From contig NZ_BCTT01000008.1 in the NCBI RefSeq assembly GCF_001590905.1, positions 62,001 to 126,000 of the forward strand: 64,000 nt of DNA, read 5' to 3'. The notes under the pieces are model-generated. The model did not search any database. It was not told the DNA's origin and worked only from the letters and a program-made list of their open reading frames with translations. This stretch comes from Serratia grimesii NBRC 13537. Its GTDB lineage: Bacteria > Pseudomonadota > Gammaproteobacteria > Enterobacterales > Enterobacteriaceae. Shown here one piece after another: positions 9,547-21,242 of the stretch (positions are counted from its first letter, which is position 1; every line of letters begins with the position of its first letter). Made by a program: the position numbers and the translations under genes.

Positions 9547-10654
9547 TCCCTATGCTGCCGGTGCGGCAGTGAACATTTACTTACTGGGTGCCAGGCGAAA
9601 TCATCATTTCTAAGCTGCCTGTACGGCAGTGAACATCAAGCCGCATAACTGCCCGACTTTGGCTAATTTCTAAGCTGCCTGTACGGCAGTGAACTGTTAT
9701 GCCGCAATCCAATTACCGCACTGATTTTTCTAAGCTGCCTGTACGGCAGTGAACTGGTTGGTACCCAGCAGATTTTTTTGATGTCTTTTCTAAGCTGCCT
9801 GTACGGCAGTGAACCACCCCATTCATGATACGCATGGTTACTGTGATTTCTAAGCTGCCTGTACGGCAGTGAACGTGACTCTGTGGCATCGCGTAGCGGT
9901 TGCACTTTTCTAAGCTGCCTGTACGGCAGTGAACAACAGGGCATCACAAAGATCATCATCAACGTGTTTCTAAGCTGCCTGTACGGCAGTGAACCAATGC
10001 TGTCGATATCAAGCGCCAACAATTTGTTTCTAAGCTGCCTGTACGGCAGTGAACATTTGCGACGCGGCTACAGTTACCGCGTTTTGTTTCTAAGCTGCCT
10101 GTACGGCAGTGAACGCTGTGATGTCAGTACACGCGGGCGCGCGGAATTTCTAAGCTGCCTGTACGGCAGTGAACGCTGTGCGTATGATCCCGAACAATCG
10201 CGCACTTTTCTAAGCTGCCTGTACGGCAGTGAACAACGTGCCGTTACCGTCACCGACGGCCATACGTTTCTAAGCTGCCTGTACGGCAGTGAACGCCGTG
10301 CTCTGCTTCCCATCGTGACGGGTCACTTTCTAAGCTGCCTGTACGGCAGTGAACCATTGGGCTTGTCAGTGTCAGTATTGGGGCCATTTCTAAGCTGCCT
10401 GTACGGCAGTGAACCTGTCGGCTTCTATACCACCGTATCTGGCCGATTTCTAAGCTGCCTGTACGGCAGTGAACGAACAGCACGACGCCAGTACGGTACG
10501 CATCCATTTCTAAGCTGCCTGTACGGCAGTGAACCTACTGCTCAGACCCTTGGTAACGTAATGTTATTTCTAAGCTGCCTGTACGGCAGTGAACAATTGT
10601 CCAGCCCCTGGAAGAGTGGCCAGATTTTTCTAAGCTGCCTGTACGGCAGTGAAC
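9547..10654 (-). CRISPR. CRISPR1, type I-F array, 19 repeats and 18 spacers
   Basis: Eighteen identical 28-bp repeats start every 60 bp from 9607 to 10627, and a nineteenth, degenerate copy (23/28) lies at 9547-9574. All spacers are 32 bp. Read on the minus strand the repeat begins GTTCACTGCC and ends CTTAGAAA, the classical I-F repeat with a 5-bp CTGCC/GGCAG stem around GTACA. Transcription is from right to left. The leader lies at 10655-10784, next to cas6f, and the degenerate repeat is at the far left, as expected for the oldest end. The crRNA handle CTTAGAAA and 3' hairpin follow from Cas6f cleavage after repeat base 20. I could not assign spacer targets. Confidence 0.98.
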
Positions 10655-10784: not shown

Positions 10785-11339
10785 TCAGAACCATGGCACC
10801 GTGGCTGATGGGCTTAAGCCATAGAAACTAAACTTTCCTTCCACCGGCGTTTTCCGCAATGCTCCCTGCTTTAGAAACAGGCGAAAACTTTGCCCCGAAG
10901 AGAGGCTTTTCAACGCAATAAACGCAAGTGAAGAGCGTTGTTCACTGGTCATCGGGATCTTTTCTCTGGCCTGTTCCTCAGTTAACCAACCTTTATTGAC
11001 CGACCTCCTTCGCAGGCGCTCTGCACTGCTCTTGACCTGAACCCGGCTGACCGTTCGGTATTGAGCGCCCGCTGGCACAGTCTGAATGGGGTCTACGCCG
11101 GTATAGTCGCGCAACCCTTTCAGCCAACCGCTTTCCTGAAGTTCCATCAGCGCCTTACCGCTACCGTGCAGCCGTAAAACAGCACCCGGCGTACGCTGCA
11201 TGTCTGGGAAGCTGACGCCGATATTCCCTTGAGCATAGGAAGCTAACGCCCGATGCAGCTTGGCGAATAGCGCAGCCATCAACATGGGTTCGCTGAACTC
11301 AGGATCGGGCAATACACGAATATCCTGATAATGATCCAT
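10785..11339 (-). CDS. cas6f: CRISPR endoribonuclease Cas6f/Csy4
   Basis: A 184-residue Cas6f. With the start at 11339 (AAGGGGG 6-7 bases upstream, 10 bp after the csy3 stop), His29 falls in LFAKLHRALASY, the same position as the catalytic His29 of Pseudomonas aeruginosa Csy4. The arginine-rich stretch RVQVKSSAERLRRRSVNKG near residues 97-115 corresponds to the RNA-groove helix. The enzyme binds the repeat hairpin, cuts at its 3' base and stays on the crRNA as the head of the Csy complex. It is the last gene of the csy unit. The longer frame from 11381 would overlap csy3 and is not preferred. Confidence 0.97.
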   Translation of the reverse strand: MDHYQDIRVLPDPEFSEPMLMAALFAKLHRALASYAQGNIGVSFPDMQRTPGAVLRLHGSGKALMELQESGWLKGLRDYTGVDPIQTVPAGAQYRTVSRVQVKSSAERLRRRSVNKGWLTEEQAREKIPMTSEQRSSLAFIALKSLSSGQSFRLFLKQGALRKTPVEGKFSFYGLSPSATVPWF

Positions 11340-11349
11340 GTTAGCCCCC

Positions 11350-12345
11350 TTATTCACCCTTCTCGCCAAACACGCCACCACGGATTAAAATCGCCATCAC
11401 ATAGTGCTGTTGCGCCACATCGGGGACTTTGCCTTTAGTGACCCAATTATCCAGCAAAGTGTAGAAATCCATTTTCTGTTTTGGCTGACGATAGGCTTGC
11501 CCACGGCTAGTCACCGAACCATAAGGTTCCACCGCGATCGGCCCCAATCCCAACGTTTCAGCTTCGGGATACCAGCTATCGATGGTACGCAGCGCGTTAC
11601 CAATTTTCTGTGAGTGCATGGCGGCAATATCATCGACCTGATATAACACTTTGCTTTTCTTGCTATTACTGTCCAATACCAATTCTTGCGAAGGGAAAAT
11701 TTCCTGTCCTTTGCCCAAACGCACTTCAGCATCGACGCTGAAGAAAGAGAAACTCTCCCCAGACAAGCCCTGCTCAATTTCCTTGGCCAGTTCAGCCAGT
11801 GCCTTATTCGGTTGGCTAAACTCACGCAAATTGTAATCAGTAGCGTTAAATTGCCAGGTCTTCTCTTTGCCTTTAACGGTAATAGTAATTTCGTCAGCGC
11901 CAACGCGATTGCGCCACAAGAAACGTCCGTTCGCCAGGTTTTCAGCATAGCGCCCGGCCAGTTCTTTGAACCCCTGCTCCTTGATATACCCCTGGATCAC
12001 TCGCGCTAATTCAGCCTGGTAATCCTGATCGTTACATACCGATGGCTGTGCCAGATTACCCAGTACACGCAGGGTAAAACTCACTTTCAAGGTATCGGCG
12101 TCAAACGGCAATGCCGCTACGTCCACCCGCTGCAAATTAGGCTTTTGAATTTCGGCGTCCAATTTAGCAGGATCGCTAGCGACAGCATTTTTTAAACGGT
12201 TAGAAATGGTGCCACGCACCGCTTTTTCTTGAATGGCAATCGGTGTCCATTCAGGTTGTTGCCAATTACCGGCGTACATGATGGCGTCCGAGTTTGCCAA
12301 TTTACGCTCAAATGCCAATACAGAAGCGGTCTTTACAGTAGCCAT
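11350..12345 (-). CDS. csy3: Type I-F Cascade backbone protein Csy3 (Cas7f1)
   Basis: A 331-residue Cas7-family protein, beginning [22 protein letters not shown], typical of Csy3. Six copies normally polymerise along a 32-nt spacer, each covering about 6 nt, and every sixth base is flipped out. The start has AAGGAT 8 bases upstream. It is preceded by csy2 (18-bp gap) and followed by cas6f. Length and key blocks ([23 protein letters not shown] near the C-terminus) look intact. Confidence 0.96.
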
Positions 12346-12363: not shown

Positions 12364-13287
12364 TTATTCTTCATCGTTAAATTCGTAGGTTTCCATCACG
12401 GCAGGTACGGCACTGCGACATAGGTAGTCATCGCCTTGATGATGGTATTGCCATAACAACTGATTCAGTTCGGTAATACGGTGCAAGCTGCGCCACTCGC
12501 CAATGCCGTAAACCGGCTCGGCGAAACGGAAAGGTGTTGAAGGATCGCGCGTTTTTGCTACCTCACCCGGTGCATATAGTGAAGAGATCCCCCGATAGCC
12601 GGTTTGCATTGGTACCAAATAACCCGAAGCCGGTTTCGGCACGTAACGCCATTGGGGATCTTGTTCGCTGGCGGGTTGATATTTTACTGCGGCAAAATCC
12701 AGCCAGGCGTCCAACAGTTCGGCCTGCGGGTTGCTCTCTTGCAGCGTTTGATAATGGTTGGCCAACAGCTCGCTACGATCGAGCAGAGCAAACCCGGGCA
12801 GTAAACGATGCATCAGCCTGCGCAAGTCCGCTGGCTTTTCAGGGGTGCCCATAACTTTGATCGTACCGATGTCGGTAATCACACCACCAGCCAAACGCTG
12901 AGCTGGGCACAGATCGGCGAGATATTTTTCCAGAGCTCTGGCGCCCTCATCGCCATTAGCGATGGCTCCATGACACTCGAGCAGCAAGGATACTGTCATG
13001 TGCATCCGGCCTTCTTCATTGAACGCCGCCGTTTTAGCCTCTTTGGTCAAGGGATTACGTGTTAACGCAAAAGCATAATCACGCCCGGAGGAATGAGCAT
13101 GCAGCTGATACTGATGACAAATGACGCCGCAGCCAGTCAGGGTCAAACCGTGGCTCTGCTGCAACTTGCGGGATAGCGCATGGGTATAACCGAGAAAATG
13201 GGTGATTGCCGGGAAACCATAGGTTAGGCCAGCGATGGCATTGGCGTTCTCAACCCGTACGTGACGCAGTACGATCAAAGCTCCCAT
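12364..13287 (-). CDS. csy2: Type I-F Cascade protein Csy2 (Cas5f1)
   Basis: A 307-residue Cas5-family protein. The N-terminus ([25 protein letters not shown]) and the [29 protein letters not shown] block are typical of Csy2. With Csy1 it forms the tail heterodimer that holds the 8-nt 5' handle of the crRNA and helps recognise the PAM. Its ATG lies inside the end of csy1 (13-bp overlap), with GGGAG about 8 bases upstream, so coupling is likely. Confidence 0.95.
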
Positions 13288-14639
13288 GAAAAATCTCCCT
13301 TAAACTCTGCTTCAAATTCACGCAGGCGACGTTTAAACAAGGGGGCAGTCGACCATTCGCGCCGTTCAACTTCACTGAATTTCATCTCTTCGCTTTTTAG
13401 CTGGTGATTGAGCCAAACGCCGAAATCCAGAGCGATTTCCTTTTTCCAGCCACCGCCTTCACGTTCAAAGCGGAAGTCCTCATCCTGCTTCATCCGCCAG
13501 GGATCAAGCCAAAGCTGTTGTGCGCGGGAAAGTTGGCACGCCTCACGCTGGCTCCAGCATTGCCATTCTTGCCGATTTTGAATGCCGGCCACATAACTAA
13601 ACAGAATATCGATAACCTCATCGACGTAGGCGCTACGCTGCTGACGGATCTCTACGTTATTCCCTGGAACCTTGTTAGCATCGCGCAGGTGCTGTTTTAG
13701 TTGCCATACCGCATCCCTCGCCAACGCGGAGAACTCTTTCCGCTCCTGAAAAATAGACTGTTGGTTTAACGGCAGCTTGCTGACGGTTAACCACACTGGC
13801 GCAGAACACGGCAGCAACCAGACGCGGCCACCGCGTACGCTGTTGAGATAGGAAATATTCTGTGGCTTGGTGCCCCCCATATTTAGCACTGCGGTTTTGG
13901 GGTAGATCACCCGAGGTTCTGGGTACCACTCACCGGCTTTTAGGGCCTGATAACACTCTTTGGCAGTATCGCTAAAGCGCACATCGCTGATGCGCTGGTG
14001 CACCGCCTGTGCTAACGAGGAGGAGAATAGCGGGCTAAGCAGATGGTATTCGTTCGGCCCAACCGGGAAATAAAGCTGTTTAGCCAGAGTATGGGAAGAA
14101 AGGTTTTTATTCACTAACACCTGTTTGAAACCCGCCATCCACAGTTCCAGTTGCTCTGGGTTTTCGGCTAACGCCGCTAGCGGAGTGCTATCGCCACGGC
14201 TTAAACACGCAATCAGCGATTCGCCTTCATATTCCAATTGCAGCAACTTCGCCACATCCAGCGCTGCGGCATTGCCCACGGCGTCGATAGCCGGTTGGGA
14301 TAAGCTTGCGCTCGAAAGTCGGTCTGTAGCATGTGACTCGCTATCCGCAGCAAAAATACTGCTGCCTTTGGCATCGCTGTGGGTAAATTTTAGGGCGTGA
14401 GTGACAAGACTGATTTGCCCTGCACGGCTGGCGGCGTCAGTCAGCCAATGGCGTGGAGTATAATTTCTCTCTAATTCTTGCCGCTGTTCCAAGGCGCTTT
14501 GCCTAGCAACCGCGATCTCTTCAGCCTCAGTCAGCCCCGCCAGCTTCTTCGCAAGATCCTTTTCCAGCGCTTCCAGCTTGGGCTGCTTGCGACTGGCGAT
14601 ATATTCTACGATCAACGCGGTTAATCCATTATCGGCCAT
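13275..14639 (-). CDS. csy1: Type I-F Cascade large subunit Csy1 (Cas8f1)
   Basis: A 454-residue Cas8f, the I-F large subunit that reads the CC/GG PAM and recruits Cas2-3. The N-terminus [27 protein letters not shown] and the late block [28 protein letters not shown] match the family. I place the start at the ATG at 14639, because AAGGAG lies 5 bases upstream. An in-frame ATG at 14690 overlaps the stop of the small upstream ORF (ATGA) and would add 17 residues without family support. That overlap nevertheless means the small ORF and csy1 are probably on one transcript and possibly coupled. Confidence 0.95.
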
Positions 14640-14686: not shown

Positions 14687-14845
14687 TCATTTGTTGATAT
14701 TGATAGTCAGGATTGATATCACCTTCGACTTACCGAGCGAGTCTGACTTGTTTCCATCGCTCTGAATCAGCGGGTTTATACAAACAATACATACAGTCAG
14801 CAGTTGAACGACTCTGCCAATTTTATCCGTCCATCCTTGTTTCAT
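14687..14845 (-). CDS. Unannotated 52-residue ORF upstream of csy1; candidate CreT-like toxin or leader peptide
   Basis: ATG at 14845 to TGA at 14689-14687, with a near-ideal Shine-Dalgarno GGAGG at 14857-14853, 7 bases from the start. The peptide starts MKQGWTDKIGRVVQLL, has an uncharged hydrophobic stretch at about residues 12-27 (VVQLLTVCIVCINPLI), a polar middle (QSDGNKSDSLGKSK) and a short hydrophobic tail. I recognise no family. It sits in the gap between cas2-3 and csy1 on the csy strand, and its promoter region contains the pseudo-spacer match described at 14889-14915. That is the layout of CRISPR-repressed small toxins (CreT), which are diverse in sequence. Alternatives are a leader peptide for csy1 or a chance ORF; the strong ribosome site argues against chance. 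Confidence 0.65.
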   Translation of the reverse strand: MKQGWTDKIGRVVQLLTVCIVCINPLIQSDGNKSDSLGKSKVISILTININK

Positions 14846-14888
14846 TTTGACACCTCCGCATGTTCGATAGGAGATAGCCTACGCCAAA

Positions 14889-14915
14889 ATTATCCTATGT
14901 TCTATAAATAATACG
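14889..14915 (+). promoter_or_regulatory. Pseudo-protospacer with CC PAM in the promoter region of the small ORF and csy operon
   Basis: CC at 14894-14895 is followed by TATGTTCTATA at 14896-14906, identical to the first 11 bases of the mini-CRISPR pseudo-spacer; over 20 bases 14 match. CC immediately 5' of the protospacer is the type I-F PAM. On the opposite strand, -10-like hexamers for the leftward transcript lie here (TATTAT at 14913-14908, GATAAT at 14894-14889), although no strong -35 is evident. A Csy complex bound here would cover the presumed promoter 50-70 bp upstream of the small ORF start. Confidence 0.75.
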
Positions 14916-14963
14916 GATGGAAAAGGAAATTCTAGCATTTGCTTTTTGAGGCGTTTACCATCA

Positions 14964-15039
14964 TCACACTGCTGAACAAGCAGCTTAGAAATATGTTCTA
15001 TAGATGTAAGAGTCAACTGCCGTACAGGCAGCGGCGCAC
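14964..15039 (+). ncRNA. Degenerate two-repeat mini-CRISPR; candidate crRNA-like regulator (CreA/CreR-like)
   Basis: Pseudo-repeat 1 (14964-14991) matches the array repeat at 22/28 positions. Its stem changes at repeat bases 10 and 16 (C to T, G to A) compensate, so CTGCT/AGCAG still pairs, and the 8-base handle CTTAGAAA is perfect. Pseudo-repeat 2 (15012-15039) matches at 21/28, with the whole stem-loop CTGCC-GTACA-GGCAG intact and the unneeded 3' end decayed. The 20-bp pseudo-spacer lies at 14992-15011. Cas6f cutting would release a 48-nt RNA with normal handle and hairpin. It reads on the plus strand, opposite to both arrays and all cas genes, and abuts the cas2-3 stop codon. Its promoter is not obvious; TAGCAT at 14933-14938 is a weak -10 candidate. 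Confidence 0.85.
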
Positions 15040-18000
15040 TCATTCGAGTGCGCCAAACACCCCTAACAGCGGGTGGAAATGCCATTGATCGGCCTTATCT
15101 TTCCTCAGATTAATTTCGCCAAATTTCTGGCTAACCTCTGTCAGTTCCATATCCAGCTTTTCGGCCAATCCTTGGTAAATGGCGCCATAGTCTGCGGTGA
15201 GCCAGGCGCCTACGCCTTCAGCAAAGGTCACTTCAACCTGACGGAAGTTATCGCTGGTTTTCCATTGGCCAGGGACAACATCCGGAAATTTAAAACACGG
15301 CGCATCCCCTTCGTCCGCTATCCACAGGTAGTGTGGTTCCTCCTCGGTAGACTGGCGAAATGGCGTCAAACGCTGTTGTTCACCGCACCAGGTTGCCTGT
15401 TTGCGCCACCAAAGCGCGGCGTAGTATTTATCAAGCTGCTTTCGCCCCTGTAAAACCGTTCGCAGACAGGCATGTTCAAGATCGACCAGATTATGGTGCT
15501 GCTTTAGTACCAATGCCTCCTGAACGCGCGGAATCGCACTGATCACTTTATATTGTTCAGGCGGTAATATTTCCGTCAGATCATGACTCTGTAGCTGGAT
15601 CTGATAGAACGTTGACTCAAACCCCGGCCGACAATAAGCCGGCTGGTTGCCTTTCAGCGCCTTAACGTTCTTTTGCAAAATATGCAGATTCGGATACTCG
15701 CAGGGTTGCTGCCGATGGCGTTGAATACGCCCTGCCAATTGGATCAGCGAGCGCATTGAGCTCGGTTCGGCAATCGCCCAATCGTAATCATGATCGCGCC
15801 CCACCTCCGCAACCGAGGTGGCCAGCACCACAAACAGATGGTGCTGCTGCGGATAATCCGTCAATGCGCGATCAATCTCCGCCATTTGCCACAGTGCGGC
15901 TTCAGAATAACGCGTCAAAGTTTCGTCCAACCGCTGTTCTATATACGAACGCATCGCCAACGGGTGCTGGCTGTGGTAAACGCAATAATGGATGCAGGTA
16001 TTGTCAGGCGCTGCCGTATTGAATAATCGCTGTGCTACTGCCACTAGCGGATTGATATTGGCCATACGGATCAACCCCAACGAGACGGTTTTACCCGTTG
16101 GGTGCTTTTGATGATGAAGTGAGTGTAATTGTTGCATCGACGCGAATAGCGTTTCCGAGACGCTATCCAATACCGCGCTTTCACGCAGGCCAGTTGGTTG
16201 AACCGCTACCAACTGTGCGCGACGCAGTACTGGCACATTCTGCAATTTACCCACCCGCCTGCCAACAAAGGCCTCATGCGCCGCCTTAAAGCCTTTGGCA
16301 TCCTGAATATCATGCTGCACGGCATCATGCTCATCAAACCAGGCACAACAAACATTCAATTGTGTGCCTGGCAGACCACACCCTTGTTGATAATCCGCTC
16401 GCCCGGATTTATAAGCATTGAACAGAGCCTGAACCAGCGCAGGCGGTAGGGTTGCAGAAGAAAGTAAAACGCGGGAACCCAACATTCCTGCCCAATTGAC
16501 CACTCGGCATAGCGCGGGAAGATCGGCAATATCAAAATCATCTGGCTCATCCAGCACTAAATCGGCGGTCAACAAACGCAGCATCGGCGCTATTTGCTTA
16601 CCACCGCGCACACCCTCCGTCGCACCAATCAGATGATCAATAGTAGTCACCAATACCGGTGCACTCAGTAATTTGTGCAATTTGTCGCTATCTTGTAGCC
16701 AACGGCTTAAACGTCCATCATCCAGACTGCCACCGTAACTGACATAATGATGCTCCGCGAACAGCTCATCTGCCGAAGCGCTGCCGGTGCCGCGCCGCTC
16801 CAATTTATCATTGTTGAGTTGATGTAATTGCCGCACCGCCGCAGAGCCAACCAACACCGCCAGATCGTCCTCTTCCAGAGTAAGCTTGGCTTTCAGCGCA
16901 TCGCCGGTTTGCAGCGTTAAGGTTCGTAGCCCTAATGCCACAGAAAAACGGCAACCTGCCTTCTCATCGGCCAAGCCATACATAATGCGGGCGTTGGCAA
17001 AAGTTTTGCCACAGCCGGTAGAGGCCATATTAACGCCAAAGAAACCCTGATTAACCGAACGTTCACGCACTGAATACGTGAGATCGTAGGCTTTATCCTG
17101 CCAACGAAACCTCTCGGTTTTACTGCGCTGTTTAAACCCTTTATGCCGCGTAATAGCCGGCAGCGTGGCTCGGATATGCGGTAAGCTACGTCCCAGCAAT
17201 AGTGCATTTTGCCCTACGCCGATATTGTGCTCGTCCAGTTGCTGCTTCAATTCACCGGTTTGGCGGTCAGTATTGGCATACACCCGATACCCGGTATCTT
17301 GCCAACCCACCGTTGGTGGTAAGGATGAGTAGTGATGGTCCGCTAACATCAGCACCAGACGTGCCATATGGCAGGTGAAGCGCTGCTCCAACACGCCAAA
17401 ATCCATCAATGAAGATTGTTGCAACGCTCGTTGAGCAAATTTATGCGCTTTTTCCCGCCAGATAATACTGCGCATCGGGGTGCCTTGAGGGAAAACCCAT
17501 ACCGCACGGCGTTCATCTGGTGTCCAGCCCTCAATCTGGTGGTTAGTCGAGTTCCAATCAGCGGTTAATTGCTGTGTCAACCAAGTGTCGATTGCCGACA
17601 ATTGGGGTGGATTGCCTTCAACACGCGTTGGGTAAGCCGGTAAACGGTGATGGGAAACGATCAACCAGGCAATGGTCGTTGCCAGCGGAGGTAATGATAT
17701 GAAAGGATTTATAAACTCATCGATGGCATCTTTGACCAGGCTTTCCAGCATCAGTTCTTCATCGTGCGCCTCAATCATTGCCAGGGCCGCGAGCCACTCC
17801 TTGTCGCTTCGTTTACCCACCCAGGCACAAAACAACCGCAATGAAACCCACTCATGGCGATAGGGCTGGAAGCTTTTCCCCACACCACGTAAACCGTTCT
17901 GGAATAACTGGTTGGCCTTGCCAAAGTCATGGAATAAACCCGCAATGGCCGCCAGTAAGCTGATACTTTCCAGATTATGCCATTGGTTTTCACTGTGGCT

Positions 18001-18297
18001 TTTCAAAATATCACGTTCAGTGGTATTAGTGGGTGCCGCACCTTCGGCATTAAAACGACGTTGATTGCCGACGATCCAGAGTAATTCCGTTTGATTAGCC
18101 CCTTTAATCCAGTGGCAAGCCACTGCCGTATTACGCCGGGCGCTTTTACGTAACAGTTTACGCAAGGTGTTCAAACCTTCGTAGGTGATGGCGGTTTGCC
18201 AGGTACGTTCGCCCTTGCGCTCGGCAAATTGATCTAATATTCGACGAGTTTCCGTTAAGGCACGTTTATTACACTGAGCAACCAAAAGAATATTCAC
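15040..18297 (-). CDS. cas3: Type I-F Cas2-Cas3 fusion (helicase-nuclease)
   Basis: A 1085-residue fusion. The first 95 or so residues are the Cas2 domain (MNILLVAQCNKRALTETRRILDQFAERKG). An HD nuclease domain follows, with H123-D124 in AGLFHDFGKANQLF and later conserved histidines. The superfamily 2 helicase has Walker A STGCGKTFANARIM, a DEAD-box-like LDEPDDFD, LLSSATLPP and ATSVAEVGRDHDYDW. The C-terminal domain follows. It nicks and degrades DNA at Csy-bound targets and, with Cas1, acquires spacers. It starts with GTG at 18297, overlapping the cas1 TGA (GTGA). The pseudo-repeat 2 hairpin begins directly after its stop. Confidence 0.97.
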   Translation of the reverse strand: MNILLVAQCNKRALTETRRILDQFAERKGERTWQTAITYEGLNTLRKLLRKSARRNTAVACHWIKGANQTELLWIVGNQRRFNAEGAAPTNTTERDILKSHSENQWHNLESISLLAAIAGLFHDFGKANQLFQNGLRGVGKSFQPYRHEWVSLRLFCAWVGKRSDKEWLAALAMIEAHDEELMLESLVKDAIDEFINPFISLPPLATTIAWLIVSHHRLPAYPTRVEGNPPQLSAIDTWLTQQLTADWNSTNHQIEGWTPDERRAVWVFPQGTPMRSIIWREKAHKFAQRALQQSSLMDFGVLEQRFTCHMARLVLMLADHHYSSLPPTVGWQDTGYRVYANTDRQTGELKQQLDEHNIGVGQNALLLGRSLPHIRATLPAITRHKGFKQRSKTERFRWQDKAYDLTYSVRERSVNQGFFGVNMASTGCGKTFANARIMYGLADEKAGCRFSVALGLRTLTLQTGDALKAKLTLEEDDLAVLVGSAAVRQLHQLNNDKLERRGTGSASADELFAEHHYVSYGGSLDDGRLSRWLQDSDKLHKLLSAPVLVTTIDHLIGATEGVRGGKQIAPMLRLLTADLVLDEPDDFDIADLPALCRVVNWAGMLGSRVLLSSATLPPALVQALFNAYKSGRADYQQGCGLPGTQLNVCCAWFDEHDAVQHDIQDAKGFKAAHEAFVGRRVGKLQNVPVLRRAQLVAVQPTGLRESAVLDSVSETLFASMQQLHSLHHQKHPTGKTVSLGLIRMANINPLVAVAQRLFNTAAPDNTCIHYCVYHSQHPLAMRSYIEQRLDETLTRYSEAALWQMAEIDRALTDYPQQHHLFVVLATSVAEVGRDHDYDWAIAEPSSMRSLIQLAGRIQRHRQQPCEYPNLHILQKNVKALKGNQPAYCRPGFESTFYQIQLQSHDLTEILPPEQYKVISAIPRVQEALVLKQHHNLVDLEHACLRTVLQGRKQLDKYYAALWWRKQATWCGEQQRLTPFRQSTEEEPHYLWIADEGDAPCFKFPDVVPGQWKTSDNFRQVEVTFAEGVGAWLTADYGAIYQGLAEKLDMELTEVSQKFGEINLRKDKADQWHFHPLLGVFGALE

Positions 18298-19274
18298 CGC
18301 CCCACCTGGCTTAACTGCTGGGCAGTCGTTTGCAGTGCCTCAATCATGACATCCAGAACATCTGCCTTTTGAAATCCATTAATACAGCGCTGGCGGAACT
18401 CTTGCTCCTCTTCCCCCTGCATCGCGGCAATAAACGCCTGCGGTAATACCAACGCGTCTTTGATCAGATCTGCGGCGTCAAATACCAGGCCACCGCGACG
18501 CGTTTTACCATGTAACACCGCTAACCCATGTGGCAACCTAATTACCCAGGTTGCCACGGCAGCCAAACCGTAGGCCAGGTAATTGCCGTGATCCAAAAAA
18601 CGGTTTGCAATATCTACACCACCACCGCGTTTGGCACGGGTAAAGTCACCGTATCCCACCGCCGTAGCAGCCAGCTTATATAAGGCTTTGGTCATCACCG
18701 CTTCTTGCGCGAGCAAGTCGGTACTATTACGGCATGCCGTCAGATTATTTTCATATTTATCCAGCAAGGCCAGCAAACGGTTTTCGTCTATGGCAAAACC
18801 GGTTTCCCGCTCCATTCTGGCGTTTAACCAGTGTTTTTTTATTTGCTCAATACGTACACGTTGAAAAGCTATCGCCGCAGCTAAGCGTTGGTTATCGTCA
18901 AACCAGAAGCTCACCCAATGTTGCAAATATTCTGTTGGCCGATATTCGCTTTGTGAGCATAACCAAGAAACGGCGACTTCCACTTCATTGCCCGCATATA
19001 AAGGTGTACCTGCACCACCACAGAAGCCAACCAAGACACCCGCTTTGGCAAACTCGCGCATTGCGGCTTGCGTAATTGAAGTGCCAGTTCCGAGCATGAC
19101 AACAGAAGTATTAGCAATGGGGATATTCCAATAAAGAGACTGTTTCCCTTCATCAGTAACATACTCAACTCGTCCGCCATTAACTAAAACACGGCAATAT
19201 TGCAGGTAATAAAGATTGGCTCTTTTGGAATGCAAGATTGTTTTTAAATCGGACGGCGAGAATGAGTCATTCAT
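18294..19274 (-). CDS. cas1: Type I-F CRISPR integrase Cas1
   Basis: A 326-residue Cas1f. FSPSDLKTILHSKRANLYYLQYCRVLVNGGRVEYV at the N-terminus and the C-terminal metal-site region around LPHGLAVLHGKTRRGGLVFDAADLIKDALVLPQAF are typical. With Cas2-3 it integrates new spacers at the array leaders. I start at the ATG at 19274 (MNDSFSPSDL), the family length; a TTG at 19316 would add 14 residues. The ribosome site is weak. cas1 is first of the cas1-cas2-3 pair, and an ERIC element lies 64 bp upstream. Confidence 0.96.
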   Translation of the reverse strand: MNDSFSPSDLKTILHSKRANLYYLQYCRVLVNGGRVEYVTDEGKQSLYWNIPIANTSVVMLGTGTSITQAAMREFAKAGVLVGFCGGAGTPLYAGNEVEVAVSWLCSQSEYRPTEYLQHWVSFWFDDNQRLAAAIAFQRVRIEQIKKHWLNARMERETGFAIDENRLLALLDKYENNLTACRNSTDLLAQEAVMTKALYKLAATAVGYGDFTRAKRGGGVDIANRFLDHGNYLAYGLAAVATWVIRLPHGLAVLHGKTRRGGLVFDAADLIKDALVLPQAFIAAMQGEEEQEFRQRCINGFQKADVLDVMIEALQTTAQQLSQVGR

Positions 19275-19337
19275 GTCTTGAATTATCCATAATTTAAATG
19301 ATTCGAGATTGGTCAATAGAGCGAATGCATCACCGAC

Positions 19338-19753: not shown

Positions 19754-20197
19754 TCAAATAAACAAATCAGCAGGGACATCAAAACGCGTCGCCAGCGCCT
19801 TGATGTGCTGTACAGTCAATGAGCGGCGACCGTTGAGAATGTTGCTGACATTGCTTTTAGATCCCAGCTCATCTTCCAGATCAGCGGCTTTTAAACCCTT
19901 CTGATCCATCAGGGTTCGCAACGCGGCGATCCCAGTAGGGATCTCCGCCACGCGACGGTTAAACGCCTCGAATTCCGGGACGCTGTTTTCATATTCTGTA
20001 ATTTTGGCCGCAAGCGGTTCAAAAAGCGGGTTGTTCAGCTCGTCACGATCGACAAGATATTCAATCAACTCAAGAGCTTTTTTATATTCAGCCTCGCTTT
20101 TATTACCCGTCATCAGAGGAATGCATTTCACCGCGTTGGCAAATGTCGCGATCATGCCTTCGGCACTGTCGGCGTCGATATGAGTGGCAACAGTCAT
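19754..20197 (-). CDS. higA: HigA family antitoxin with C-terminal HTH
   Basis: A 147-residue protein. The C-terminal half is a Xre/Cro-type helix-turn-helix (GLKAADLEDELGSKSNVSNILNGRRSLTVQHIKALATRFDVPADLF, about residues 100-146). The N-terminal region resembles the toxin-binding part of E. coli-type HigA. It neutralises HigB and represses the operon. The gene order toxin-antitoxin is typical of hig modules. The ATG overlaps the higB TGA (ATGA). The module sits between the cas genes and CRISPR2, where a plasmid-stability-like addiction pair could help retain the locus (inference). Confidence 0.9.
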   Translation of the reverse strand: MTVATHIDADSAEGMIATFANAVKCIPLMTGNKSEAEYKKALELIEYLVDRDELNNPLFEPLAAKITEYENSVPEFEAFNRRVAEIPTGIAALRTLMDQKGLKAADLEDELGSKSNVSNILNGRRSLTVQHIKALATRFDVPADLFI

Positions 20198-20505
20198 TCT
20201 TTATGCTCCCTATAATACTTTGTTAACTTGTCGTATTCGGCATGAGTCTCAATGTGCTTTACAAAAACCTTTTGCTTTTCAAAGTCAATGAAGGCCATCA
20301 GCCGCAACGTGTTCCCGGACACATCAATCACCCACCACTTTTTACGGTACTTGAAGTTATCCAGTGACGGGATCGCTCTTTTCATCTCATCCGGGCTGTT
20401 GAAGGTCTTTTTTTCCAGAACCCTCATCAGATCAAGAAGCGCCAACGCGCTATTAGGGTATTTCCCTGCAGCCTCATTAAAGGGCTGTCTACTGATCACA
20501 TGCAC
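20194..20505 (-). CDS. higB: HigB family ribosome-dependent mRNA interferase toxin
   Basis: A 103-residue toxin of the HigB branch of the RelE/ParE fold, collinear with E. coli HigB: MHVISRQPFNEAAGKYP, PSLDNFKYRKKWWVIDVSGNTLRLMAFIDFEKQKVFVKHIETHAEYDK. It cleaves translated mRNAs on the ribosome. I use the GTG at 20505, because GAGGG lies 7 bases upstream and the protein then begins MHVIS like the family. It is followed by higA with a 4-base overlap. Confidence 0.92.
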   Translation of the reverse strand: MHVISRQPFNEAAGKYPNSALALLDLMRVLEKKTFNSPDEMKRAIPSLDNFKYRKKWWVIDVSGNTLRLMAFIDFEKQKVFVKHIETHAEYDKLTKYYREHKE

Positions 20506-20673: not shown

Positions 20674-21242
20674 CGCTGTAGCTGCCTGTACGGCAGTGAA
20701 CCAGGCCAACGGCCAGGGCAGACGCTTGCAGCATTTCTAAGCTGCCTGTACGGCAGTGAACATCCAGCGCCTTGGCGGCCTTGATGCGCGCCCTTTCTAA
20801 GCTGCCTGTACGGCAGTGAACAAATCCTGGCTAACCGTGAGGCGCAGCCTGTCTTTCTAAGCTGCCTGTACGGCAGTGAACAGAACTCCGCGCCAAGCTG
20901 GCTATGCCGGTGCTTTCTAAGCTGCCTGTACGGCAGTGAACTTTGGGCAGATGTAAACCTGCTGATAACTCCGTTTCTAAGCTGCCTGTACGGCAGTGAA
21001 CTTACTGCTACATATCAGGCCGTCATATTAATATTTCTAAGCTGCCTGTACGGCAGTGAACTTAGAAATACCAGCGGGCGTAACTGTTAAGTATTTCTAA
21101 GCTGCCTGTACGGCAGTGAACCGATCCTATTGAGTGGGGGTATGGGCCAGAATTTTCTAAGCTGCCTGTACGGCAGTGAACTCGCCAGGTTCGCTATTGC
21201 CCCCGCTGCCGCCATTTCTAAGCTGCCTGTACGGCAGTGAAC
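20674..21242 (-). CRISPR. CRISPR2, type I-F array, 10 repeats and 9 spacers
   Basis: The repeat is identical to CRISPR1. Full repeats start at 20734, 20794, 20854, 20914, 20974, 21034, 21094, 21154 and 21215. A decayed copy lies at 20674-20701, with its left 8 bases diverged. Spacers are 32 bp except the leader-proximal one (21182-21214), which is 33 bp. As in CRISPR1, transcription is on the minus strand: the decayed repeat is at the left and the leader at the right. The array is about 1.4 kb upstream of cas1 and shares the csy machinery. Confidence 0.98.

Follow-up and report, generated by a model that had tools for sequence, protein, structure and literature searches.

Organization of the type I-F locus

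The 64-kb stretch of Serratia DNA analyzed here, referred to throughout as the window, carries a type I-F CRISPR-Cas locus whose cas genes all read from the minus strand: cas6f/csy4 (10785..11381), the presumed processor of the guide RNA described below, csy3 (11350..12345), csy2 (12364..13287), csy1 (cas8f; 13275..14639), cas2-3 (cas3f; 15040..18297), and cas1f (18294..19316). The start of csy1 was set at Met18 of a longer ORF, at position 14639, which is the start of many homologues and has AAGGAG upstream. The two CRISPR arrays, array 1 at 9547..10654 and array 2 at 20674..21242, have the minus strand as their crRNA strand and are built of 28-nt repeats at 60-nt spacing with 32-nt spacers; one spacing in array 2 measures 61 nt instead of 60 nt. 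Degenerate end repeats at 9547-9574 (23/28) and 20674-20701 (22/28) represent ordinary trailer-end decay. Between cas1 and array 2, at 19754-20505 on the minus strand, lie genes for a HigB-like toxin (PF09907) and for an HTH protein that is a HigA-like antitoxin by position; these would be a second toxin-antitoxin pair of the CRISPR locus, in addition to the candidate discussed below. The gap between cas2-3 and csy1 holds a two-repeat mini-CRISPR, a site matching its pseudo-spacer, and a small ORF, to which we refer as the cassette.

A two-repeat mini-CRISPR between cas2-3 and csy1

On the plus strand of this gap, two diverged repeats, psiR1 (14964..14991; 22/28) and psiR2 (15012..15039; 21/28), enclose a 20-nt pseudo-spacer or guide (14992..15011). 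This arrangement, on the strand opposite to the arrays and all cas genes, had been proposed in a preliminary description of the locus and was borne out by a repeat scan of the whole window: on the plus strand only 14964 and 15012 match the 28-nt repeat at 19/28 or better, while all 29 minus-orientation sites at that level lie inside the two arrays, and the random expectation of a match of at least 21/28 is 0.005 per 64 kb, both strands included. Also as described earlier, and read directly in the sequence, psiR1 keeps its hairpin (CTGCT-GAACA-AGCAG) through the paired change of C10/G16 to T10/A16 and has an intact handle, CTTAGAAA, at 14984-14991, and psiR2 has a perfect Cas6f-type hairpin (CTGCC-GTACA-GGCAG). 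Against the Rfam model CRISPR-DR4, psiR1 scored 30.5 bits (E 7.5e-5) and psiR2 20 bits (E 0.13), neither reaching the gathering score of 35 bits. The predicted mature product is a CreA/CreR-like RNA of 48 nt (14984..15031, plus strand), made up of an 8-nt handle, the 20-nt guide, and a 20-nt 3' handle. The element thus departs from a canonical array in its repeats (22/28 and 21/28) and in its 20-nt spacer, as against 32 nt in the arrays, and has the architecture of a CreA guide gene, namely two degenerate repeats with Cas6-type hairpins around a short spacer, within a cas locus and outside its arrays.

The 3' part of psiR2, earlier regarded as dispensable and decayed, turned out otherwise: its GGCGCAC lies in one arm of a conserved hairpin, the partner of which is the 3' end of cas2-3. 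This hairpin, GGCGCACTC-ATTC-GAGTGCGCC (15033..15054, plus strand), directly follows the psiR2 stem, has the last codons of cas2-3 as one arm, and contains the cas2-3 stop codon. The fold of 14950-15066, to which these 9 base pairs contribute, has a z-score of -5.5. Of 18 cassettes inspected, 15 have eight to nine pairs; their stems come in four versions, with compensatory changes on the two sides. The hairpin is broken in locus L078 and in two of three Escherichia coli loci. The cas3-coding arm is also present in Serratia loci devoid of the cassette, and the other arm arrives with it.

A predicted PAM-flanked target in the same gap

The first 11 nt of the guide, TATGTTCTATA, recur once within the 64-kb window, at 14896-14906, where they follow CC, the type I-F PAM (14894-14895); CC plus these 11 nt occur once in the 5,072,299-base genome. 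The predicted target (14894..14915, plus strand) is identical to the guide at 14 of 20 positions, namely the seed (positions 1-11, 11/11) and positions 13, 14, and 18, with a mismatch at position 12. Some 1e-5 such matches would be expected by chance per 350-nt gap, both strands counted, and a spacer partly matching a nearby PAM-flanked site is a feature of CreA. We consider it very likely, judging from this match and from the survey below, that the guide acts on the CC-flanked site at 14894-14915. Neither this site nor the small ORF at 14687-14845 had been noticed in the preliminary description, and the two together hold the key to what the element does.

No convincing sigma-70 promoter for the small ORF was found by scanning the window gap, and scores were weak in relatives, so that an overlap of target and promoter stays unsupported there. 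In a weighted scan, many shuffled sequences scored as well as the best sites in most cassettes; a -35-like hexamer just past the PAM recurs in L002, L154, L009, L011, L028, and L038.

Guides and targets across csy1 loci

The region before csy1 was compared in 142 loci, 133 of them distinct by that sequence. They were drawn from a contig scan (37 loci), from whole-genome samples in which csy1 was matched in 47/295 genomes of the family, 2/30 of the genus, 60/394 of the order, and 34/369 of the class, and from 20 extra regions of our own choosing among the remaining matches; the set is a subset of csy1-matching genomes, and at least 142 such loci exist. Gap length was measured to the start of the csy1 alignment, which somewhat overestimates it in distant loci. 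Elements were detected by a stem of at least 4/5 pairs, a handle of at least 7/8, and a second hairpin 8-40 nt on. The strict version of the detector returned 34 loci and the relaxed version 40 loci with 41 elements; these counts are lower bounds, because the guides of L078 and L132, visible by eye and in the alignment, escape the relaxed detector, and they do not include the E. coli and later Pectobacterium loci. The gap was shorter than 150 nt in 62 of the 117 loci with cas3 upstream, and none of these 62 contained an element, detection being impossible by construction in gaps shorter than an element. Elements were present in 21/42 gaps of 150-600 nt, in 10/13 above 600 nt, and in 9/16 loci where cas3 was not upstream.

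The 133 loci contained 39 elements with distinct 11-nt seeds. Scored over guide positions 1-5 and 7-11, a CC-flanked target is present within the element's own gap for 36 of the 39, at a seed of at least 8/10 (24 at 10/10), against a mean of 3.05 and a maximum of 12 in 10,000 random spacer-gap pairings. When no PAM was required, the best match of 39 of the 41 elements reached a seed of at least 9/10, and CC stood in front of 36 of these 39 (two had CT, one AA). Failures of the target test were L036 (AA), L087 (seed 10 but CT), and one of two elements in L141, the other of which passes at 8/10 only, with a better CT match, and may be a chance hit. Identity was 35-36/36 at guide positions 1-5, 32-35/36 at 7-11, and 21-29 of 29-35 at 13-17, and dropped at positions 6 (12/36), 12 (9/36), and 18 (8/29); selection of the best matches by seed inflates the seed figures, while positions 6, 12, 18, and 13-17 played no part in it. 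Type I effectors leave every sixth guide base unpaired, and the 6/12/18 mismatch pattern is therefore a prediction of use by the Csy complex and not of decay. Guides and targets also differ together: Pectobacterium loci L002 and L155 share a small-ORF family but their guides are unrelated, and either guide matches the target of its own locus (9/10 in both); where L078 and L132 differ at guide position 5, their targets differ alike.

The cross-species comparison suggested at the outset thus gave a positive answer for guide, target, PAM, and periodicity; the persistence of stem and handle carries no weight, since hairpins and handle are what the detector requires, a circularity from which the seed, PAM, and periodicity results are independent. 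The earlier contention that selection for a crRNA-like RNA, as opposed to random decay, has shaped the element is upheld by the CC-flanked own-gap targets and the 6/12/18 mismatches across the 133 loci, with processing by Cas6f as the presumed route. On these patterns the mini-CRISPR is real and not a product of decay, and it is a CreA/CreR-type guide for the Csy complex.

A small hydrophobic ORF downstream of the target

The csy1 strand carries, between the target and csy1, an unannotated small ORF (14687..14845, minus strand) of 52 codons plus stop, a candidate toxin gene with a hydrophobic N-terminal segment and a GGAGG Shine-Dalgarno sequence (14853-14857). It begins 48 nt from the PAM and ends 47 nt before csy1, and hence has the layout of CreTA, with a small gene just downstream of the target, reading away from the guide gene. 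The window has, in all frames, 258 ORFs of 40-75 aa; 9 of them are as hydrophobic, and the small ORF alone among these 9 has a 5-nt Shine-Dalgarno sequence.

ORFs of 49-58 aa occupy the same place in L001, L002, L003, L009, L011, L020, L028, L035, L038, L045, L155, and L163, while L078 and L132 apparently have, by eye, only hydrophobic frames of 27 and 20 codons. Identity between the window ORF and its relatives does not exceed 33%. Its best single-pass matches among 1,401 gap ORFs were L045 (E 0.001), a remnant in L005 (0.005), and L002 (0.013), and in an iterated search L045, L002, L005, and L011 joined it at 2e-16 or better. L009 and L035 group with L002, L001 and L003 form a second group, and for the ORFs of L020, L028, and L038 the likeness to the others is limited to size, location, and a hydrophobic beginning. 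Values of dN/dS, which come from Pectobacterium and Brenneria relatives and not from Serratia, were 0.20, 0.28, and 0.26 in the group related to the window ORF (L002/L154/L155) and 0.30, 0.23, and 0.31 in the second group (L001/L163/L003).

A profile of six family members matched 10 of the 295 family genomes at E 0.01. Five matches, all beside csy1, reached 2e-10 or better, and the remaining five were weak (E 0.003-0.008); since four of the five strong matches are members of the query and the fifth is the L005 remnant, the search shows absence elsewhere rather than independent recurrence, and nothing convincing was found away from csy1 loci in the 295 genomes. A search of plasmids with the L002 peptide gave no homologue at E 0.05. 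The window ORF had no match at E 1 in Pfam, NCBIfam, or PHROGs, and six relatives had only weak matches below cut-off, none of them to KilA-N. An identity with CreP was rejected for want of any KilA-N match; the best of the weak ones was SecY2 for the L009 peptide (E 0.0096), far below cut-off. An AlphaFold2 prediction for the peptide with six relatives, giving helices at 4-31 and 36-51, was uninformative (mean pLDDT 62, pTM 0.28).

Gain, loss, and variants of the cassette

In S. quinivorans, a near relative (L032, with its duplicate L031; csy1 94% identical), about 30 nt stand in place of the cassette, and within Pectobacterium it is present in 5 of 14 csy1 loci. As these loci compare, the parts of the cassette come and go together. 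In L005, the C-terminal part of the small ORF directly follows cas3, and its N-terminus, start region, target, and any detectable guide are gone; this single case fits the expectation that the ORF cannot stay intact without the guide.

Matches to csy1 came from 200 E. coli genomes among 5,426, and three of the loci were opened (STEC299, NGF1, and UTI89; L165-L167). Each has a 329-nt gap between cas3f and csy1 with a guide and a CC-flanked target at seed 10/10, and none of the three gaps has a clear hydrophobic ORF, which counts against a toxin in all members. These gaps have no annotated features; csy2 of UTI89 is annotated with an internal stop and cas3f of STEC299 as incomplete. In the 194-nt gap of L068 (Marinobacterium), which has no small ORF, the guide matches a CC-flanked site at the csy1 start at 17/17 counted positions, and by this match L068 is likely to be a type I-F CreR. 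Taken with the E. coli gaps, it suggests that type I-F probably holds both CreTA and CreR kinds.

A further variant occurs in genus g194 (L079, L081, L086, L088, and L091), where the guide element lies on the csy1 strand and has its own CC-flanked target, in a cas3-csy1 gap of about 800 nt where measured. A gap protein of 106-107 aa and no clear family is encoded in L079, L086, L088, and L091, with a shorter frame in L081; it is possibly a different guarded protein.

Proposed mechanism and alternative explanations

The reading that we favor, with a probability of roughly 0.7, is that of a CreTA-like toxin-antitoxin cassette guarded by CRISPR, with a possible second role in adjusting csy expression. 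A plus-strand transcript would be cut by Cas6f at both hairpins to give the 48-nt crRNA-like RNA, which would load the Csy complex and direct it to 14894-14915 through the 11-nt seed and partial further pairing. The limited pairing is not expected to license Cas3 cleavage, and by analogy with known CreA the bound complex would instead block RNA polymerase, and with it minus-strand transcription of the small ORF and possibly of csy1 behind it. When Csy is lost or blocked by an anti-CRISPR, the small membrane peptide would most likely harm the cell, which would thereby depend on its own I-F system; since csy1 is downstream and reads the same way, more Csy may also be made upon de-repression.

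A simpler explanation, which we regard as unlikely while giving it some weight, is autorepression of the CreR kind only: the guide would send Csy to the csy1 promoter region to limit cas expression, and the ORF would be a harmless leader peptide. Target, ORF, and csy1 do all read one way, with the ORF ending close before csy1, and autorepression by CreR has been reported, for types I-B, I-E, and V-A as listed in PMC13131331 and for type I and V-A in general according to the review PMC12737573. The L068 target at the csy1 start, where there is no room for a small ORF, and the E. coli gaps that retain guide and target alone agree with it as well. In the window, the small ORF sits between target and csy1, and read-through into csy1 is possible. 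Across 12 cassettes, however (leaving aside L078, L132, and L020, the target of which is on the other strand, and with L154 standing for L045), the ORF lies 48-70 nt from the PAM in 11 and 10 nt from it in L035, whereas the distance from PAM to csy1 varies from 205 to 621 nt, L011 having about 350 extra bases between ORF and csy1; a distance so steady on one side and so variable on the other ties the target to the ORF. The ORFs of related cassettes also evolve as protein, and their family was not convincingly found outside the gap in 295 genomes. The small ORF is, in our estimation, probably the main regulated gene, and we incline towards its product being toxic.

Rather improbable is a CreA that guards an RNA toxin, in which, following the pattern of Acinetobacter and haloarchaea, the RNA of the small transcript would itself do the harm and the ORF would be incidental. 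The gap, the divergent layout, the 20-nt guide, and the CC PAM are all as in the Acinetobacter creTA, where a conserved mini-ORF of 33 bp proved to have no role as protein (PMC10097628); a conserved ORF can therefore be a misleading sign. Against this stand the 49-58 codons of the present ORFs, their hydrophobic N-terminus, and dN/dS of 0.20-0.31 where measured, together with the requirement for translation of the Citrobacter rodentium I-E toxin (PMC12055562).

The view that an old array of two repeats has decayed at random and does nothing today would account for the loss of 6-7 of 28 positions in both repeats and for the absence of the cassette from S. quinivorans. It was rejected as highly implausible in view of a CC-flanked seed match that is unique in the genome and of the guide-target matches, co-differences, and 6/12/18 periodicity across 36 elements. 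Scarcely credible, finally, is the idea of a phage-type RNA anti-CRISPR (Racr) that was captured, or of an immune spacer that targets the cell's own DNA, for although phages carry solitary repeat-like elements as Racrs (PMC10651486), the present element has two repeats and a 20-nt guide with partial pairing, as opposed to the 32-nt array spacers, and matches an adjacent CC-flanked site, as do such elements in the cas3-csy1 gap of many loci.

An extended form of the CreTA-like reading, which we put forward tentatively and do not favor as yet, would see in these loci a widespread new family of CRISPR-guarded membrane-peptide toxins of type I-F in Enterobacterales, with one transcript encoding a death peptide followed by csy1-csy2-csy3-cas6f, such that loss or inhibition of Csy would at once raise a lethal alarm and start the rebuilding of the complex.

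Novelty and implications

The preliminary description had held the locus to be undescribed. This no longer applies to the kind of locus, for which there are precedents in Acinetobacter, with an I-F creTA between cas3 and csy1 (PMC10097628), and in C. rodentium, with a type I-E system; the target, the peptide, and the breadth of occurrence are new. A 0.4-kb cas3/cas8f1 gap in Serratia, "I-F1 unique locus 1", has been described as an architecture (PMC9981886), and going by that description, as opposed to its sequence, it is probably the same kind of locus as in the window; the words CreTA, antitoxin, mini-CRISPR, and crRNA-like are absent from the main text of that paper. No description of an I-F creA or creR in Serratia, Pectobacterium, or E. 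coli was found in the literature covered, in which CreR and CrePA were represented by reviews. What the comparison of loci supports is an Enterobacterales I-F cassette with a previously unrecognized hydrophobic peptide.

These results explain a recurrent gap in I-F loci and, with nothing but sequence, show self-regulating guide RNAs to be common in such loci; they also expose small peptides that Pfam, NCBIfam, and PHROGs fail to recognize above their cut-offs. Should the peptide be toxic, many I-F systems would hold their own alarm against loss and anti-CRISPRs, with a bearing on CRISPR persistence, on the evolution of phage anti-CRISPRs, and on the deletion or editing of I-F genes. The presence of guide and target in all three E. 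coli I-F loci opened brings laboratory tests within reach.

Comparison with known systems

The closest counterpart is the I-F creTA of Acinetobacter sp. WCHA45, situated in the cas3-csy1 gap, whose CreA was sequenced as 8+20+20 nt and whose CreT is a bactericidal RNA (PMC10097628). The Serratia cassette resembles it in its position, its two degenerate repeats, its 20-nt guide and CC PAM, and in a target placed between the guide gene and a divergent small ORF with a Shine-Dalgarno sequence; the 8+20+20-nt guide RNA, sequenced in Acinetobacter, is predicted in Serratia. It differs in a 52-codon hydrophobic ORF, whose relatives are under protein-level selection, as against an RNA toxin with a 33-bp mini-ORF. 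Pairing is also weaker in the Serratia window (14/20) than in Acinetobacter CreA, where it is 17/20 and positions 13-17 are needed (PMC10097628), a difference that counts against the CreTA reading.

The I-E CreTA of C. rodentium lies between cas3 and casA and combines a putative guide with a 96-bp toxin ORF that is translated (PMC12055562). It shares with the window the gap between cas3 and a cas8-family gene, a guide on the opposite strand, and a PAM-flanked target just upstream of a small ORF, and differs in being of type I-E and in an ORF reported to have no homologues (PMC12055562), being set beside the window family by description only. With CrePA the cassette would share a guide-repressed protein toxin; CreP typically carries a KilA-N domain (review PMC12737573), whereas the window ORF has neither KilA-N nor any Pfam, NCBIfam, or PHROGs match. 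Like CreR mini-CRISPRs, the Serratia element has a predicted crRNA-like guide with limited pairing near a cas promoter, and unlike them it has a toxin-like ORF between target and cas gene. By its sequence features the window element belongs with the CreA guides, and the cassette is a candidate member of CreTA proper.
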